Shown one piece after another: positions 1,382 through 9,791 of a stretch of DNA of 10,696 nucleotides; the stretch's first letter is position 1; every line of letters starts with the position of its first letter. Made by a program: the position numbers and the translations under genes. The notes beneath the pieces were generated by a model. It saw nothing but the letters and a program-made list of their open reading frames with translations. It made no database searches and was not told where the DNA came from. Origin of the DNA: Candidatus Woesearchaeota archaeon. GTDB lineage: Archaea > Nanobdellota > Nanobdellia > Woesearchaeales > UBA525. The stretch lies in NCBI GenBank assembly GCA_013331575.1, contig DUGD01000058.1, forward strand, positions 1 through 10,696, given 5' to 3'.

Positions 1382-1597
1382 ATGGAAAACATCCCCATCT
1401 ACGTCAAAGTGGACAAGTACAAGGAGGTCGTCGATGTGCTGAACGCGATCAACGCGAAGCTCCAGGCAATCGACAAGACCATAGAGCGCGTCAACCAGCT
1501 CAAGGCGCAAGAGGACCTGCAGCTCCAAGCATGGGGCGAGAACCTCGGCGACATACGGGCGCGCATCGAGAAGATCAACAAAGCGTTTTATGAATAG
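1382..1597 (+). CDS. Small conserved coiled-coil hypothetical protein (IKVD family)
   Basis: 71 aa, two or three amphipathic helices and no membrane segment. It starts ENIPIYVKVDKYKEVVDVLN and ends with a Trp-containing helix and I-N-K-A-F-Y-E. I recognise the pattern (Y-V-K-V-D start, N-x-L-K-A-x-E-D middle, W-x-x-N-L, I-D/N-x-A-F/L-F/Y-E end) as a small conserved hypothetical of DPANN and related archaea; its function is not known to me. The start is fixed by its position 4 nt after the preceding stop, with a GAGG site (1369-1372) inside the upstream gene. Heptad-like hydrophobic spacing suggests it dimerises or pairs with the homologous C-terminal domain of its neighbour. Confidence 0.85.
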   Translation: MENIPIYVKVDKYKEVVDVLNAINAKLQAIDKTIERVNQLKAQEDLQLQAWGENLGDIRARIEKINKAFYE

Positions 1598-1631: not shown

Positions 1632-1746
1632 GCGCTGCCTTGGCGTGCGATTCGAGGCCCGGCGACTTTCGAGCCGTTAGGCGAAGAAAGACCCTGACGG
1701 GCCGAGACCGTCCCGCGACGGAGCCGCGGTGGATGCGCCGCAGCGC
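1632..1746 (+). ncRNA. Structured RNA, copy A of a two-copy family
   Basis: A closing helix GCGCTGC (1632-1638) / GCAGCGC (1740-1746) is followed by a CTT bulge and an inner helix GGCG (1642-1645) / CGCC (1736-1739). The interior holds further hairpins: GGCCCG/CGGGCC, a CTTTC/GAAAG stem capped by GCC-gtta-GGC with a GA/GAA internal loop, and CCGTC/GACGG. The same frame (GCTGCCTTGGCGTG at the 5' side, TGGATGCGCCGCAGCG at the 3' side) recurs at 5197-5288 with a different interior and a compensatory pair change, which argues for an RNA rather than coding sequence. It fills the gap between two operon genes, so the + strand is assumed. I cannot match it to a known family; a 67-codon reading frame across it looks non-protein-like. 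Confidence 0.6.
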
Positions 1747-1817
1747 CAGAACCCGAGCACGTAATCGGTGCACAACCGACACATACCCAAGACACAACTG
1801 AACACAAGACGATACCC

Positions 1818-2318
1818 ATGGGAAACTACTTCATCAAGGTGGACGACGGACCAGACGTTAGGCGCAAGATACTGGAATCCAGCAAGGCCGGATTGCACCT
1901 GCTCCACGGGCACCAGAAACTCAAAGTGCTGCGCGGGGAGAAGCTCTCGCTCATGAATGACCTGCGCCAGCACATGAAAGAGCTCAACGTGCTCATCAAC
2001 CGCGCGGAGACGCTCATGCCCGAGCTCACCGAGGCAGAAGCGGCCGAATTGCAGCCGAAACAGCTGCCGCAACTGCCCGACGTGCAATTCCCTCCCAAAG
2101 CGGCGGCGAAAAGCGGCAACGTCGTGCGGCCGCAGCAGAAAGGGAGCAAGAAGGTCTTCATAGCAGCGCCAAAGCACACTGTGGTCGAAGAGGTGCCGGT
2201 ATCGATGCCCGACCTCTCGCCTGCGAAGAAGGAATCTGTCAAGCCGAAACCTCTCACCGAGCTCGAGAAGCTCGAACAGGCGCTCGCGGCCGTCGAGAAG
2301 AGACTCGATACGTTGTGA
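1818..2318 (+). CDS. Coiled-coil hypothetical protein, third member of the IKVD cluster
   Basis: 166 aa. Residues 1-75 begin G-N-Y-F-I-K-V-D-D and continue as two long charged helices (R-R-K-I-L-E-S-S-K, then L-R-G-E-K-L to I-N-R-A-E-T-L). This resembles a small DPANN hypothetical that I know only as uncharacterised. A Pro/Lys/Ala-rich linker (about 80-140) follows and a last helix T-E-L-E-K-L-E-Q-A-L closes the chain. The V/I-K-V-D start echoes its two upstream neighbours, suggesting one complex or a shared ancestor. No Shine-Dalgarno or clear TATA box lies ahead of the ATG, so it is probably read from the upstream promoter through the structured RNA, or from a processed transcript. It is followed by a clear terminator. 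Confidence 0.82.
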   Translation: MGNYFIKVDDGPDVRRKILESSKAGLHLLHGHQKLKVLRGEKLSLMNDLRQHMKELNVLINRAETLMPELTEAEAAELQPKQLPQLPDVQFPPKAAAKSGNVVRPQQKGSKKVFIAAPKHTVVEEVPVSMPDLSPAKKESVKPKPLTELEKLEQALAAVEKRLDTL

Positions 2319-2319
2319 T

Positions 2320-2357
2320 GTCGCTTTTTTAGCGACGCTTTTTCACCGTCAGTGAAA
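2320..2357 (+). terminator. Terminator between convergent genes
   Basis: GTCGCT (2320-2325) pairs with AGCGAC (2331-2336) over a TTTTT loop and is followed by a T-run. A second stem TTTCAC/GTGAAA lies next to it, then another T-run near 2363. It closes the + strand cluster and sits just before the end of the oppositely directed glycosyltransferase gene. Confidence 0.7.
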
Positions 2358-2392
2358 GTCATCTTTTTGCATCTCGGCTACGGTTGTAGCTT

Positions 2393-3208
2393 CTAACGCT
2401 GTATCGTCTCAATCTTCTCATTAGTGGTGTACAGTCGGGTGGGGAACCGTGGCTTCACTTTGCGTTCAGTGCCTGACATCGCAGTATCATGGTCGAAGTA
2501 GTCTTTATCGATGAGTCCGATGTCGGTTATCACGCCGTGCTTTCGAGCATAACGGTCTGCTCTGATGCCGTTTTTCAGCACAGGCATGATGCCGTCTTTT
2601 CGCAATCTGCGAGGGTCCACCCGTACATACGCCGGGCGGTCAAGCACGGCGAAACGATACCCGTCATGGACAGCGCGTTGGATATAGTCGGAATCCTCAT
2701 AGAACGCCCATCTTTCATCGAATCCACCGATGCGCTCATGAACATCTCGCTTCGCTGCTATGATTGTGCCGCAACCAAACGGCCGTTTACTGTGCGACAT
2801 GACCCGTTGTGCAGCGTTGAAGATCGCGAAATACGCCTTCTCTCGTATTGACGTGTCGATGCCTACATGGTCTACGGTTGCGACATCGAGGCTCCTCTCT
2901 CGCATGTCTTGTCGTATGTCGCGCAGCAGATATGCGTCACCAGGCAACACATCGGCATCGAGGAACAACAGGAGCTCCCCGTGCGCGTGCCGAGCGCCCT
3001 TGTTCCTGCCCGGCCCCGGCATGCCGCCTTCCACCCATACCGCATCAGGGTGGTATTTCTCTGTCACTTCACGTGATCTGTCAGTCGTGCTCGGCGCGAT
3101 CGCGACAAGGATCTCTTCAGGTGGGTGGGATTGTTCGAGAAGCGCCGGCAGGAGTCGTTCGAGATTACGCTCTTCGTTCTTCACAGGTATGATAACGCTC
3201 ATTCTCAT
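2393..3208 (-). CDS. Family 2 glycosyltransferase (GT-A fold)
   Basis: 271 aa. It transfers a sugar from a nucleotide-sugar donor to an unknown acceptor, presumably in surface glycan or glycolipid synthesis. The N-terminal S-V-I-I-P-V-K-N-E-E-x-N-L and L-x-x-L-L-E-Q are the classic GT2 nucleotide-binding start. The metal-binding D-x-D is F-L-D-A-D (Asp84, Asp86), and the catalytic E-D is F-Y-E-D-S-D (residues 171-174) after G-G-F-D-E. No transmembrane helix is visible, so it is probably soluble or peripheral. The reading frame extends further upstream, but the ATG at 3208 is preferred: it overlaps the stop of the phosphoesterase gene by one base (TGATG) and has GGAGG seven nt ahead. Translation is thus coupled to the gene before it. 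The acceptor specificity cannot be read from sequence. Confidence 0.92.
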   Translation of the reverse strand: MRMSVIIPVKNEERNLERLLPALLEQSHPPEEILVAIAPSTTDRSREVTEKYHPDAVWVEGGMPGPGRNKGARHAHGELLLFLDADVLPGDAYLLRDIRQDMRERSLDVATVDHVGIDTSIREKAYFAIFNAAQRVMSHSKRPFGCGTIIAAKRDVHERIGGFDERWAFYEDSDYIQRAVHDGYRFAVLDRPAYVRVDPRRLRKDGIMPVLKNGIRADRYARKHGVITDIGLIDKDYFDHDTAMSGTERKVKPRFPTRLYTTNEKIETIQR

Positions 3209-4107
3209 CAGTACGCCTCCGTTCCAATCGTGACCTTGGCCAGGCTCCTGTCTTGGCCTCGGTGATAGAGGTACACTATCGGCGGGACTATCACACTCGT
3301 CGATCGTGCCAGCGCACGCAGTCCGACGCGTCGTAGTATACGATGCTCTTTTCTCGCCATCCGCAACAAGTTCTCTTTGCCAATGAGTGTCACATCCCGC
3401 ACGAATCGTGGGAACGTCCCGTATTGCCCTCGAGGTTCGCTCAGGCCAGCCCGGATCGATGCGAGATACTCCTCCTTGCATGCGGCGGGTGCGGTGGTGT
3501 AGGTGAGTCCTATCTCAGCGCTGTGACTGTCGCTTCCCGCCACTCGTGCGGTATGCCCTCGCTCCGCGAGTGATTCTGCGATATCGCACAGGTGCTTGCG
3601 CCGCGTGCCATTGCGCACCTCGATGACTGAGAAGAACGGAAGGAGTGTTTCGAGCATCTGCATATCGAGCGGCCGGTTGCTCTCATTCCACACAGGATGA
3701 TTCCATGCGTACAGGACGCCTTCGCTCTTGAGATACGCGGTCAGTTCGCGCGCGTCGGGACGCAATCTCTGCGATTCTTTGTGTTGGCGTGCGTTGATGC
3801 CGAAAGCGTTCACATGCACTTCGTGCTCATAGCCCGGCAGTCCCGATGTTATCTCGACGCTCGTGAAGAAATCATCCGGCAGCTTTCCGTAGTGGCGTTC
3901 TAATTCGGTAGCGCCATCGATGGTATCGTGGTCTGTGAATGTGACGTAGTCCATTCCACGTCGTTTCGCGAGCGTGTACGCGTCAACAGGGGTGAGAAGG
4001 GGTTTCATCGGTAGATGCACGTGCCATTGCACATGGTCATTGCTCGCTGTTGTGTGGGTGTGGAGATCGGCGTTTTGTAGTGTCTGCGTATTGTGTGGTG
4101 TTTGCAT
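3208..4107 (-). CDS. PHP-domain metal-dependent phosphoesterase
   Basis: 299 aa. PHP (polymerase and histidinol phosphatase) domains hydrolyse phosphoesters with a cluster of two or three metals. Visible metal ligands are A-D-L-H-T-H-T (His16, His18), T-D-H-D-T (58-62), the later W-N-H-P and the final G-S-D-S-H. The C-terminal ~70 residues are Arg-rich with a hydrophobic stretch (S-V-I-V-P-P-I-V-Y-L) that might touch a membrane. The frame is open further upstream, but the ATG at 4107 lies 27 nt from a TATA-like box and so fits a leaderless transcript; the extra upstream residues would be an unlikely low-complexity addition. It forms an operon with the overlapping glycosyltransferase, suggesting a shared pathway. 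The substrate is unknown. Confidence 0.9.
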   Translation of the reverse strand: MQTPHNTQTLQNADLHTHTTASNDHVQWHVHLPMKPLLTPVDAYTLAKRRGMDYVTFTDHDTIDGATELERHYGKLPDDFFTSVEITSGLPGYEHEVHVNAFGINARQHKESQRLRPDARELTAYLKSEGVLYAWNHPVWNESNRPLDMQMLETLLPFFSVIEVRNGTRRKHLCDIAESLAERGHTARVAGSDSHSAEIGLTYTTAPAACKEEYLASIRAGLSEPRGQYGTFPRFVRDVTLIGKENLLRMARKEHRILRRVGLRALARSTSVIVPPIVYLYHRGQDRSLAKVTIGTEAY

Positions 4108-4130
4108 ATCGTGTGTGGTGGCGCAAGGGT

Positions 4131-4151
4131 AATATACTTCTTCTAAGTATA
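4131..4151 (-). promoter_or_regulatory. Promoter of the PHP operon with overlapping palindrome
   Basis: Read on the - strand, a TATA-like AGTATATTAC centred near 4134 lies 27 nt ahead of the ATG at 4107. It is embedded in a perfect inverted repeat, TATACTT (4133-4139) and AAGTATA (4145-4151), with a 5-nt spacer. A repressor bound there would cover the TATA box. The divergently encoded AbrB-domain protein is the obvious candidate to bind it (inference). Confidence 0.6.
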
Positions 4152-4165
4152 GTATGTACAAAAAA

Positions 4166-4178
4166 TTTTTAATATATA
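4166..4178 (+). promoter_or_regulatory. TATA box of the AbrB-PhoU gene
   Basis: TTTTTAATATATA upstream of the ATG at 4195 puts the box centre about 24-27 nt from the start codon, fitting a leaderless mRNA. There is no Shine-Dalgarno before the ATG. It is divergent from the PHP promoter, the two boxes being about 35 bp apart. Confidence 0.6.
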
Positions 4179-4194
4179 GATTGTTCACACTCTC

Positions 4195-5073
4195 ATGGAG
4201 ACTCGCAAAGCCCAGAAAGTAGCGACGGGCACGCTCACCATTTCATTACCTAAGCCATGGGTCGATAAACATCGCGTGAAACAGGGTAGCACGCTCACAC
4301 TGCAAGAGACTTCGGCCGGACATCTTATCATCATGCAGCACGGCCCGGCCGCTATACGGGAGCCCGCGCACCTGTCTGAGCCTTTGCTTCTCGAAGAATC
4401 CATCATATCGACGTATATACTGGGCGAGGAGCGGGTCATTATCGACGCCGCCACGCCGAGCTTACGCGCGAGAACCATGACGGTGCTCCACTACTTGCCG
4501 GGTTTCGAGATAGCGAGCGAGGATGCGAAAACGATAACCTTGCGATGCCTTCTCGACGAACAGAATCTTCGTCTGTATCCGCTCTTGGACAGGCTTTGCG
4601 TCTTGCTCGAGCATGGAGCGAAGCTTGCCGTGACCGGGGACTTGGCGGCGCTTCGGCAGAATGAGCACGAGATCGACCGCGTCTATCATCTGTGCCAGCG
4701 TATTCTCGCGCGGGCAACGCAAGAGGCGGTGTTCCTCGAGCATGCTGGCATACCCTCCGTACGCTCTATCCCAGCATTCCAGTTACTCGTCAAACGACTT
4801 GAACATGCAGGCGATGCGATCGATGATATCCGGACGATTTCATCCGTACACGCAAAATCGCTCTTCGCCATCGTGGGGATCATAGTCACACTCGTCCGTA
4901 CGTTCACTGCCGGGAAACTCAACGCGCAACGGCTTGCGGTACGCTCGCAGATAGCATCCATTATGAGGCCTGATGCGCCCGCGGAGCTGCACTTCCTCGC
5001 GAAGACCGCGGAAGACATCCGTGAAGAACTGGTGCAGCTCTATCTCGGGATGACAACGCTCGCAGAACGATGA
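4195..5073 (+). CDS. AbrB-PhoU phosphate-uptake-type regulator
   Basis: 292 aa. Residues 1-45 form a SpoVT/AbrB-type swapped-hairpin DNA-binding domain (Q-K-V-A-T-G-T-L-T-I-S-L-P-K-P-W, then V-K-Q-G-S-T-L-T-L). From about 90 to the end it is all helical in the PhoU pattern, with E-H-E-I-D-R-V-Y and L-E-H-A-G-D-A-I-D-D-I as the typical acidic metal-binding repeats. Archaeal proteins of this architecture are annotated as phosphate uptake regulators and are thought to act as transcription factors and metal-cluster proteins. No phosphate transporter genes are nearby, so the link to phosphate is by family only. It is divergent from the PHP/glycosyltransferase pair, with a palindrome over that operon's promoter. 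Start: the ATG directly downstream of the TATA box. The gene ends in TGA. Confidence 0.88.
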   Translation: METRKAQKVATGTLTISLPKPWVDKHRVKQGSTLTLQETSAGHLIIMQHGPAAIREPAHLSEPLLLEESIISTYILGEERVIIDAATPSLRARTMTVLHYLPGFEIASEDAKTITLRCLLDEQNLRLYPLLDRLCVLLEHGAKLAVTGDLAALRQNEHEIDRVYHLCQRILARATQEAVFLEHAGIPSVRSIPAFQLLVKRLEHAGDAIDDIRTISSVHAKSLFAIVGIIVTLVRTFTAGKLNAQRLAVRSQIASIMRPDAPAELHFLAKTAEDIREELVQLYLGMTTLAER

Positions 5074-5168
5074 TGATCGATAGTGCTTAGCATGATCAAG
5101 AGCCAGCACATACGCTACGGTCATTGCTTCAGCCATACGCTCCGCGACTGCCGTCATACTCACTCCAC

Positions 5169-5182
5169 ACTCACTTCGTTCG
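5169..5182 (+). repeat. 14-bp inverted repeat, left copy
   Basis: ACTCACTTCGTTCG here is the exact reverse complement of 5606-5619. The pair brackets structured RNA copy B, the mini tRNA-like remnant and tRNA-Leu. The stretch 5074-5196 otherwise holds no gene; CATACGCT occurs twice in it. Confidence 0.5.
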
Positions 5183-5196
5183 TTGGTTCGTCGAGT

Positions 5197-5288
5197 GTCG
5201 CTGCCTTGGCGTGGACCAGACTGTCGTCAACTGGCCGCAGCCGACGACAATCGTAGAACGACGACTGTCATGGATGCGCCGCAGCGAC
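5197..5288 (+). ncRNA. Structured RNA, copy B of a two-copy family
   Basis: The closing helix GTCGCTGC (5197-5204) / GCAGCGAC (5281-5288) is followed by the same CTT bulge and GGCG/CGCC inner helix as copy A at 1632-1746. Inside, CCA-GAC pairs with GTC-a-TGG, then GTCGTC pairs with GACGAC around a GGC-cgca-GCC hairpin. Against copy A the third closing-helix-end pair is T-A (5198/5287) instead of G-C (1632/1746), a compensatory change. The outer 14 and 16 nt are otherwise identical while the interiors differ. It lies between the AbrB-PhoU gene and the tRNA locus with no protein-like reading frame. Strand is taken from the shared orientation with copy A. Confidence 0.6.
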
Positions 5289-5416: not shown

Positions 5417-5520
5417 GCGGGGATTCCGGAGTGGTCAAACGGGTCAGCCTCAAGCGCCACCAATCGGCGGAGAGAGCTGCTTGCCTCGTGCATTCGCAGG
5501 TTCGAATCCTGCTCCCCGCA
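5417..5520 (+). tRNA. tRNA-Leu(CAA) with a 20-nt intron
   Basis: Acceptor stem GCGGGGA (5417-5423) / TCCCCGC (5513-5519) with discriminator A5520, D stem CCG/CGG, and T arm GCAGG-TTCGAAT-CCTGC (5496-5512). The variable arm has a TGC/GCA stem, as expected for class II. The anticodon loop after splicing is CTCAAGA with CAA at 5451-5453, hence Leu. The intron (about 5455-5474, between positions 37 and 38; the cut is ambiguous by one base) folds as CGCC-accaatc-GGCG. Around it lie helix CTC/GAG (5449-5451, 5470-5472), three-nt bulges AAG and AGA, and outer helix CAGC/GCTG. This is a bulge-helix-bulge with a 3-bp rather than 4-bp centre. The mature length would be 84 nt with no encoded CCA. The 27/43 pair is a T-C mismatch. 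The discriminator and anticodon exclude tRNA-Ser. Confidence 0.9.
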
Positions 5521-5630: not shown

Positions 5631-5646
5631 AATCCTGCTCCCCGCA
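5631..5646 (+). repeat. Direct copy of the tRNA-Leu 3' end (candidate attachment site, left)
   Basis: AATCCTGCTCCCCGCA is identical over 16 nt to 5505-5520 of the intact tRNA. tRNA 3' ends are the commonest archaeal integration sites. This copy borders the AT-rich two-gene cassette on its left. Confidence 0.6.
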
Positions 5647-9516: not shown

Positions 9517-9537
9517 GATGTACTGCGCTCTTTAGAC
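9517..9537 (+). repeat. Direct repeat flanking the folded block, left copy
   Basis: GATGTACTGCG is followed by CTCTTTAGAC. The same 11 bases and TTTAGA recur at 9771-9791, 254 bp away, with two differences in between. Confidence 0.65.
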
Positions 9538-9548
9538 AATAGATGCTT

Positions 9549-9742
9549 TTGTTGTGGCCCCAGTCACTTCGTTTCTAGGTTTGCCTACTTTGTAGTCAAA
9601 CCTTGGCGCGAAATCAGATGCTCGAGATTTGCGAAGGATTCGGTCCATTACTCGAATCCTTGCACAGGGAGAACATCTCCCTCGTGGCAGCGGCCCTCGA
9701 GCATCGCAAAAGGACTGCGTCACAAAAGCGCCGCCACAACAA
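9549..9742. ncRNA. Strongly self-complementary non-coding block
   Basis: Nested perfect helices span the region. Outer TTGTTGTGGC (9549-9558) / GCCACAACAA (9733-9742). Hairpin AGGTTTG (9577-9583) / CAAACCT (9597-9603) with inner CTAC/GTAG. GGCGC (9605-9609) / GCGCC (9728-9732). GATGCTCGAG (9617-9626) / CTCGAGCATC (9696-9705) enclosing hairpins AAGGATTCG/CGAATCCTT and GGGAG-aacat-CTCCC. That is a multibranched fold with a three-way junction. RNase P and SRP signature sequences were looked for and not seen. Strand cannot be set, since helices fold on both. Reading frames across it do not look like proteins. It could be a new RNA or a non-autonomous palindromic element with TGCTT...GTTGTGGC ends. 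Confidence 0.5.
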
Positions 9743-9770
9743 GCACAAATTAGTGATTTGCCTAAGAGCC

Positions 9771-9791
9771 GATGTACTGCGACCTTTAGAT
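9771..9791 (+). repeat. Direct repeat flanking the folded block, right copy
   Basis: GATGTACTGCG then ACCTTTAGAT, the partner of 9517-9537. The following stretch to 9895 holds no gene that I can support. Confidence 0.65.

Follow-up and report, generated by a model that had tools for sequence, protein, structure and literature searches.

By the account in PMC3049150, the BOX elements of Streptococcus pneumoniae are composite intergenic repeats in which end modules enclose variable middle modules; an RNA stem-loop is predicted for them from alignment, they are over-represented between convergent genes, and some have been shown to be transcribed. According to PMC10969869, RNase E or RNase III cuts the transcripts of the ERIC and Correia MITEs. 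The repeats analyzed here, found in a 10,696-nucleotide stretch of a Candidatus Woesearchaeota archaeon (the window, by which we mean the whole DNA analyzed), resemble BOX as depicted in PMC3049150 in their end modules and variable middle, their alignment-predicted stem-loop and their excess between convergent genes. They resemble ERIC and Correia MITEs, as presented in PMC10969869, in numbering up to hundreds of copies, in lying mostly between genes and in having inverted ends, and in both cases the likeness is one of working and not of membership. Unlike BOX as portrayed in that source, they have an archaeal host, a near-invariant CUU bulge, an arm with tandem G-A mismatches and clear 9-bp target site duplications (TSDs) in their B/E members; unlike ERIC and Correia elements as portrayed, class A copies carry no recognizable TSD and several subfamilies combine one core with different ends. 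The Sulfolobus MITEs SM1-SM4 (PMC10969869) are likewise multi-copy non-autonomous elements in an archaeon, but the covarying RNA fold reported here is absent from their description in that source, and it is with this description that the comparison is made. REP palindromes share the extragenic position and high copy number but are given as 20-40 bp long in PMC3733652. A search of the Woesearchaeota literature found no report of such elements, and this dispersed folded intergenic family is apparently undescribed so far.

Copies in the window and extent of the family

A first-pass annotation of the window had proposed two copies of an unrecognized structured RNA (copies 1 and 2 in Table 1) and had missed the third. 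The closing helix, CTT bulge and GGCG/CGCC inner helix that it described as common to copies 1 and 2 can be read directly, and the differing interiors that it noted correspond to subfamilies A and B. Of the two identical ends, given as 14 and 16 nt, the second has the right length (1730-1745 equals 5271-5286) and the first is 15 nt (1633-1647 equals 5199-5213). The compensatory change is present (1632 G-1746 C versus 5198 T-5287 A), although it is not at the end pair of copy 2, which has one further pair outside.

Table 1. Coordinates of repeat copies and neighboring genes in the window
Feature	Position	Strand	Remarks
Copy 1, subfamily A	1632-1746	+	Read directly from sequence
Copy 1, P1	1632-1638/1740-1746		GCGCTGC/GCAGCGC
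Copy 1, CTT bulge	1639-1641		
Copy 1, P2	1642-1645/1736-1739		GGCG/CGCC
Copy 1, interior			Inner P3/P4 arm and P5 hairpin
Copy 2 (interior of subfamily B)	5197-5288	+	Read directly from sequence
Copy 2, P1	5197-5204/5281-5288		GTCGCTGC/GCAGCGAC
Copy 2, CTT bulge	5205-5207		
Copy 2, P2	5208-5211/5277-5280		
Copy 2, inner hairpin	5219-5252		
Third copy	9526-9770	+	E-type MITE-like element
Third copy, inverted ends	9526-9539 and 9758-9770		First end imperfect
Third copy, P1	9549-9558/9733-9742		
Third copy, extra module	9559-9600		Ahead of the CTT bulge
Third copy, CTT bulge	9602-9604		
Third copy, P2	9605-9608/9729-9732		
Third copy, left 9-bp TSD	9517-9525		GATGTACTG
Third copy, right 9-bp TSD	9771-9779		GATGTACTG, exact repeat of left
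Small gene upstream of copy 1	1382-1597	+	In G002 the next gene comes directly after
Gene downstream of copy 1	1818-2318	+	

No family in Rfam 15 matches either copy, the rest of the window or seven copy-bearing loci; the only match past the cut-off is the tRNA at 5417-5520 (41.3 bits; ARAGORN found no tRNA there), in line with the tRNA that had been placed next to copy 2. Searching the window's 1.63-Mb assembly with the covariance model R1, whose 17 seed copies include copy 1, yields 124 matches at an E-value of at most 0.1. These are dispersed on both strands with no head-to-tail array. The two-copy RNA of the first-pass annotation is instead a repeat scattered over its own genome in more than 120 copies. 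Under stricter filters, six of the eight other genomes of the same family have matches and none of 49 genomes from other families of the order does. The search of related archaeal genomes that had been suggested thus returned many further copies, with compensatory changes, and the reading of conserved ends, variable middle and covariation as marks of a family is borne out.

Copy 1, as one of the 17 seed sequences, is matched by R1 at 1630-1748 with 66.7 bits. Stretches with the end pattern also occur in named genomes (80 tested of at least 103; 15 archaeal, 65 bacterial). Among the matches listed, the nine R1 matches of at least 36 bits are all from Woesearchaeota; bacterial R1 matches (20.5-32.3 bits) exceed some archaeal ones, and at these scores we treat the bacterial end-pattern matches as chance. 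Copy 2, at 32.4 bits with R1, does not stand out from these bacterial sequences, which had been selected beforehand for having the same ends; what supports its membership is a subfamily of its own, made up of close copies. The likeness of copies 1 and 2 exceeds chance, to judge from the 124 R1 matches and from BLAST, which locates copy 1 at 44 and copy 2 at 45 sites of the own genome (E up to 10), in many cases by a single end. Viral spread was rejected: nine end-pattern matches fall in viral contigs, and the sole one listed with R1 is at background level (23.9 bits).

Fold and covariation

The fold is maintained across diverged copies. In alignment A3 (113 own-genome copies), double changes occur in 24 of 26 pairs, and the covariation score is 0.593 versus 0.184 for shuffled data; 93.3% versus 69.1% of cells are paired (approximately 2,600 of 2,823 pair cells intact), with 681 double-change cells versus 222 +/- 12. 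Scores are also high in alignment A2 (17 copies aligned without structure; 0.446 versus 0.157 shuffled), in 35 copies from carrier genome G002 (0.581 versus 0.170) and in 32 distinct copies from other genomes of the family (0.434 versus 0.147). The CTT bulge is nearly invariant (C in 112, T in 111 and T in 113 of 113 copies), an invariance that is partly selected for because the copies were collected with R1, and the P1 pairs vary. Tandem G-A mismatches in the inner arm are conserved and not repaired.

Folding energy is modest for copy 1 (z of -1.87 on the plus and -1.64 on the minus strand) and stronger for copy 2 (-3.71 and -3.77), and does not tell the strands apart. The covarying pairs do carry a strand signal, with G-U exceeding A-C by 129 to 86 over all 26 pairs and by 119 to 28 without three pairs (dropped after looking), and the folding strand is likely the top strand. 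Function of that same strand as single-stranded DNA would give identical covariation.

Turnover and mobility

Copies are gained or lost between genomes. At the copy 1 site G002 is empty, lacking a surrounding 215-bp stretch (1596-1810 as aligned), and 19 of the 25 mappable G002 gaps are without an R1 match. Only one locus, beside the gene for ribosomal protein S7, has a clear ortholog retained in place. This copy (L053/L192) persists in two species, where four compensatory double changes have occurred in place, and it forms a mutual best pair among 54 and 113 copies, the sole such pair among seven that match in position. One other pair (L055/L203) comes close, with ranks 2 and 8; in the remaining five the partner is no closer than other copies, and we do not take them as evidence of selection in place.

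Terminal inverted repeats are confined to B/E copies, whose 13-bp ends read GGCTCTTAGGCAA. Flanks of 9 bp with 0-2 mismatches accompany four of 16 candidate B/E inverted-end pairs (some of which share one end) versus one of 240 control pairings. A match to a DNA transposon end, which the first-pass annotation had held to speak against an RNA, is thus found in the B/E members, and these are one part of the family. The subfamily of copy 2 includes elements with both inverted ends and TSDs; beside copy 2 itself no 13-bp inverted ends were seen by eye. In class A the flanks listed have no shared outer inverted end, and direct repeats beside the copies are not generally in excess, so that TSDs were rejected as a class A trait; five of 112 copies have a direct repeat of at least 10 bp within 100 nt, versus a control rate of 1.0%. 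Class A may have spread by the same route as B/E.

Searches of the family genomes for Y1 transposase (PF01797) and reverse transcriptase, and of the own genome (assembly 74.6% complete) for GGCTCTTAGGCAA end pairs, of which six were seen, 144-248 bp apart, found no mobilizing enzyme. Y1 transposase occurs in two of nine family genomes (G006, G008) and was not found in carriers G000, G002, G003, G004 and G007; reverse transcriptase occurs in two (G006, G007) and was not found in carriers G000, G002, G003, G004 and G008. Being absent from most carriers, neither is a common mobilizer, and retroelement, REP/RAYT and IS200/IS605-type identities were rejected for the same reason. REP palindromes are tied to Y1 transposase, unlike the present elements in the first four of these carriers.

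Dispersed copies, empty sites, B/E ends with TSDs, and sequence similarity that mostly ends near P1 would all suit a purely mobile MITE/REP-like DNA, its hairpin kept only as the folded single-strand substrate of an enzyme and having no RNA role. We find this explanation possible but doubtful. TSDs with inverted ends suggest double-strand cut-and-paste, which requires no hairpin; the Y1 enzyme was not found in those same four carriers; and the compensated fold at the S7 locus and the unrepaired G-A mismatches also speak against it.

Placement beside genes and proposed role

Context was counted twice, with looser and then stricter gene calls, the stricter count covering the 50 best own and 20 best G002 copies; the gene caller is simple and missed two window genes with Pfam matches. 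The copies are mostly intergenic (five of the 70 overlap predicted ORFs) and biased to gene 3' ends. Convergent gaps outnumber divergent ones by 21 to 5 (p 0.002; G002 baseline 66 versus 68 gaps), sense orientation to the gene outnumbers antisense by 24 to 11 (p 0.041), and the median distance past a same-strand stop is 73 nt. The sense bias is weak and is absent in 63 lower-scoring own copies (13 versus 14). No recurring partner gene emerged among 341 predicted proteins around copies, two-member clusters mostly reflecting either common families or loci that overlap at a single place.

The complex conserved fold, discrete size and mostly intergenic position might also indicate a family of trans-acting small RNAs, encoded by many genes and each transcribed independently at 90-200 nt. 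This is improbable: base composition shows no signal over the 30 nt preceding the copies, more than 120 copies turn over by presence and absence, and orientation is partly linked to the upstream gene. Archaeal bulge-helix-bulge splice sites could bound excised RNAs; in their canonical form each strand carries a 3-nt bulge on the 3' side of the 4-bp central helix. They would match the 3-nt bulge, the P2 of exactly 4 bp and the unpaired stretch on the other strand. In A3, however, the folding strand has each bulge 5' of its P2 strand; the order is correct on the opposite strand, whose inner arm would then hold C-A and tandem pyrimidine mismatches. With bulge order and strand wrong, we rejected this very improbable identity. 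Integron-like attC recombination sites also have a folded single strand, conserved ends and a variable interior, but their GTTRRRY core differs from the conserved end here and the copies are dispersed on both strands instead of forming cassette arrays, and we rejected that scarcely credible identity.

On balance we favor modular, structured, non-coding intergenic repeats, BOX/ERIC-like, in one Woesearchaeota-type family (two genera), that are mobile and would act as RNA structure when co-transcribed. They would spread as small non-autonomous elements. Once included in a neighboring transcript, in many cases past the end of a gene, their top strand would fold into a fixed architecture, in which a variable closing helix P1 is joined by the invariant CUU bulge and a 4-bp P2; the inner arm has two tandem G-A motifs, and there is a second hairpin. 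A protein or RNase probably recognizes the bulge together with the GC/GG pairs that flank it, and the 3' ends or the stability of carrier transcripts would depend on the fold, as is thought for bacterial BOX, ERIC and Correia elements; transcription, protein partner and mRNA effect are what we infer. More tentatively, and with a good deal less confidence, the mobile hairpin may have turned into a genome-wide RNA regulon, in which one host protein reads the near-invariant CUU bulge of more than 100 elements biased to gene 3' ends, and so governs where many mRNAs end or how stable they are; this fits the in-place compensation at the S7 locus and the architecture common to the second genus.

Structured RNA families are usually thought to be low in copy number within a genome, and structural selection on small mobile repeats to be slight. 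Here one fold is kept by 113 diverged copies in one genome of an uncultured archaeal group. The covariance model is usable for annotating these genomes, and the family makes it possible to test directly whether an RNA regulatory part has arisen from a mobile repeat.

Family size and distribution

BLAST with copy 1 and copy 2 as queries matched 44 and 45 places in the genome of the window (E up to 10, many of the matches covering one end only). In the first 77 sequences, compared by script, the ends pair up at many places, with closing helices (P1) that are altered yet complementary. Seventeen class A copies, copy 1 included, were aligned as the basis of a covariance model, R1, which finds at least 124 places in the same genome (E up to 0.1, with 150 of 935 first-look candidates scored). 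The two copies described in the first-pass annotation are present in the window, with small corrections to coordinates and lengths (15 and 16 identical end bases by BLAST), and the G-C to T-A compensatory change it reported holds, at 1632/1746 in copy 1 and 5198/5287 in copy 2.

Further copies in related genomes were found when R1 was searched against 58 genomes, using E up to 0.01 and stricter filters than in the own-genome search. Seven genomes were matched: the window's own (65 matches), its congener G002 (48), G003 (24), G004 (11), G006 (10), G007 (2) and G008 (10). This search returned zero matches in G005, of the same family, in any of the 49 genomes from other families of the order, and in G001 (0.8 Mb, 74% complete), which belongs to the window's genus and has three congeners with 24 to 65.

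The family has several interiors. Copy 1 belongs to class A; the interior of copy 2 is class B, and its alignment with 15 others gives 25 pairs, eight with double changes. Interiors that we label C and D carry the ends common to the rest of the family, and E copies have an extra module 5' of the CTT bulge. Units resembling GTAGTTGAC lie within 120 nt downstream of 21 of 113 own-genome copies versus 3 upstream, and near none of 54 copies in G002. Some class A copies of the own genome have downstream tails of GTAGTTGAC units at a spacing of about 24 nt (for example, the L048 and L053 elements).

Elements and neighbouring features, with window positions unless a locus is named
Feature	Position	Remarks
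Copy 1	1632-1746	class A
Copy 2	5197-5288	class B interior
Third element	9526-9770	E-type; exact TSD GATGTACTG; one inverted end imperfect
tRNA	5417-5520	matched by Rfam, missed by ARAGORN; carries long insertions, which may be an intron or an extended variable arm
tRNA 3' end CTGCTCCCCGCA	5505-5520	recurs downstream at 5631-5646 and 7444-7459
Copies with a GAGGGA-core P5 loop	L012:1506-1612; L014:1440-1542; L015:1506-1596	also in G004-G008 copies (e.g. L111, L117)

Fold and covariation

RNAalifold places 26 pairs in the 17 class A copies, with double changes in 19. Across 113 own-genome copies from 80 sources, in an alignment fitted to R1 and biased towards it, 93.3% of paired cells are paired (69.1% when shuffled), double-change cells number 681 versus 222, and sliding the partners abolishes the covariation signal (0.593 real versus at most 0.083 slid). 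The same covariation appears in a structure-free alignment of the 17 copies (0.446 versus 0.157 shuffled and at most 0.114 slid), and copies outside the set used to build R1 agree with it and with the fold: 35 from G002 and 34 rows, 32 of them distinct, from G003, G004, G006, G007, G008 and the MAGs t2.113 and PL23a_bin.69.

By a generous count (G-U allowed, best of ten offsets), 79 of the 110 own-genome copies, 28 of the 51 from G002 and 18 of the 19 from G003-G008 have an uninterrupted P1 of at least 7 bp, with a maximum of 17 bp. The CTT bulge and its adjoining pairs show almost no variation among the 113 copies. P3, in the inner arm, is flanked by two tandem G-A motifs (CGAG/CGAG); among 109 copies, 16 to 20 have C-G pairs in place of the inner motif. 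With the P5 hairpin modelled next to the P3/P4 arm, the fold may contain a three-way junction, but the pairs that close P5 are the least secure in the model, at 66-79% paired. A GAGGGA core recurs in the P5 loop in both genera; it could pair elsewhere within the fold, or be a likeness to a ribosome-binding sequence.

The folding energy of copy 1 by itself is unremarkable, and folding energy does not separate the strands of copies 1 and 2. The + strand is probably the one that folds, because G-U pairs outnumber A-C mismatches there (129 to 86 over all 26 pairs, and 119 to 28 with three weak pairs excluded post hoc, after inspection).

Genomic position, turnover and mobility

The elements are largely intergenic, 13 of 113 own copies overlapping a predicted ORF by at least 40 nt; neighbouring genes are ++ in 31, -- in 21, convergent in 26 and divergent in 12. 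In the 70 copies that score best, 50 of them own and 20 from G002, convergent gaps exceed divergent ones by 21 to 5 and sense exceeds antisense orientation by 24 to 11. No orientation bias is seen in the 63 own copies with lower scores (13 versus 14). Of the 20 copies from G003-G008, 6 are sense and 4 antisense, with 2 in convergent and 2 in divergent gaps, too few to reveal a bias.

Occupancy turns over between species. The genes at 1382-1597 and 1818-2318 are directly adjacent in G002, which is missing 215 bp including copy 1 (1596-1810). Over 760 kb of G002, in stretches picked largely for carrying copies, both neighbours of 25 of the 113 own copies are placed together; the gap is without an R1 match in 19, eight of these being at most 55 nt, and is occupied in six (four in the same orientation, two opposite). 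One intergenic gap occupied in both species (L088:1501-1604 and L198:12959-13063) holds copies that face opposite ways and are not especially similar, which suggests independent insertion in each. Of 308 alignments within the genome, the 45 longest mostly lose similarity no more than about 50 nt from the ends of the element, with up to about 110 nt more shared in a few groups.

B and E copies carry 13-bp inverted ends flanked by 9-bp TSDs; among 16 candidate pairs, 4 match at 0-2 mismatches, compared with 1 of 240 control pairings. Class A shows no general excess of TSDs over control. No autonomous partner was found among inverted-end pairs in the own genome, nor a Y1 transposase or reverse transcriptase in G000 (the window's assembly), G002, G003 or G004. 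Near copy 2, the block bounded by the CTGCTCCCCGCA repeats contains a GDSL hydrolase gene and one of the phosphotransferase family, an arrangement that looks like tRNA-targeted integration.

At one locus, that of ribosomal protein S7 and signal peptidase II (identified by Pfam on G000 and tblastn on G002), a copy is kept in place in both species, in the same orientation. Each of the two is the other's best match, among 54 and 113 copies, and they agree at 76 of 103 positions. Four pairs show double compensatory changes, 20 of the 26 are unchanged and two are broken in one copy; the flanks of the two copies align poorly. The R1 search found no copy at the S7 loci of G001, G003, G004, G005, G006 or G007. 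A second, weaker case is L055/L203, with agreement at 64 of 111 positions, 10 double changes and, as matches of each other, ranks of 2 and 8.

Likeness to known repeats and proposed role

We found no literature report of such elements in Woesearchaeota, in a search outside which subscription papers mostly lay. As described in PMC3049150, BOX elements likewise have end modules, a variable middle, an RNA stem-loop and a preference for convergent gaps, and PMC10969869 gives ERIC and Correia MITEs a similar anatomy and behaviour. Because anatomy and behaviour match those of these composite repeats, we propose that the archaeal elements are a mobile-derived structured intergenic repeat. They would be transcribed, the repeat functioning as RNA inside the transcripts that carry a copy, where a protein may bind at the bulge and the mRNA may be affected.
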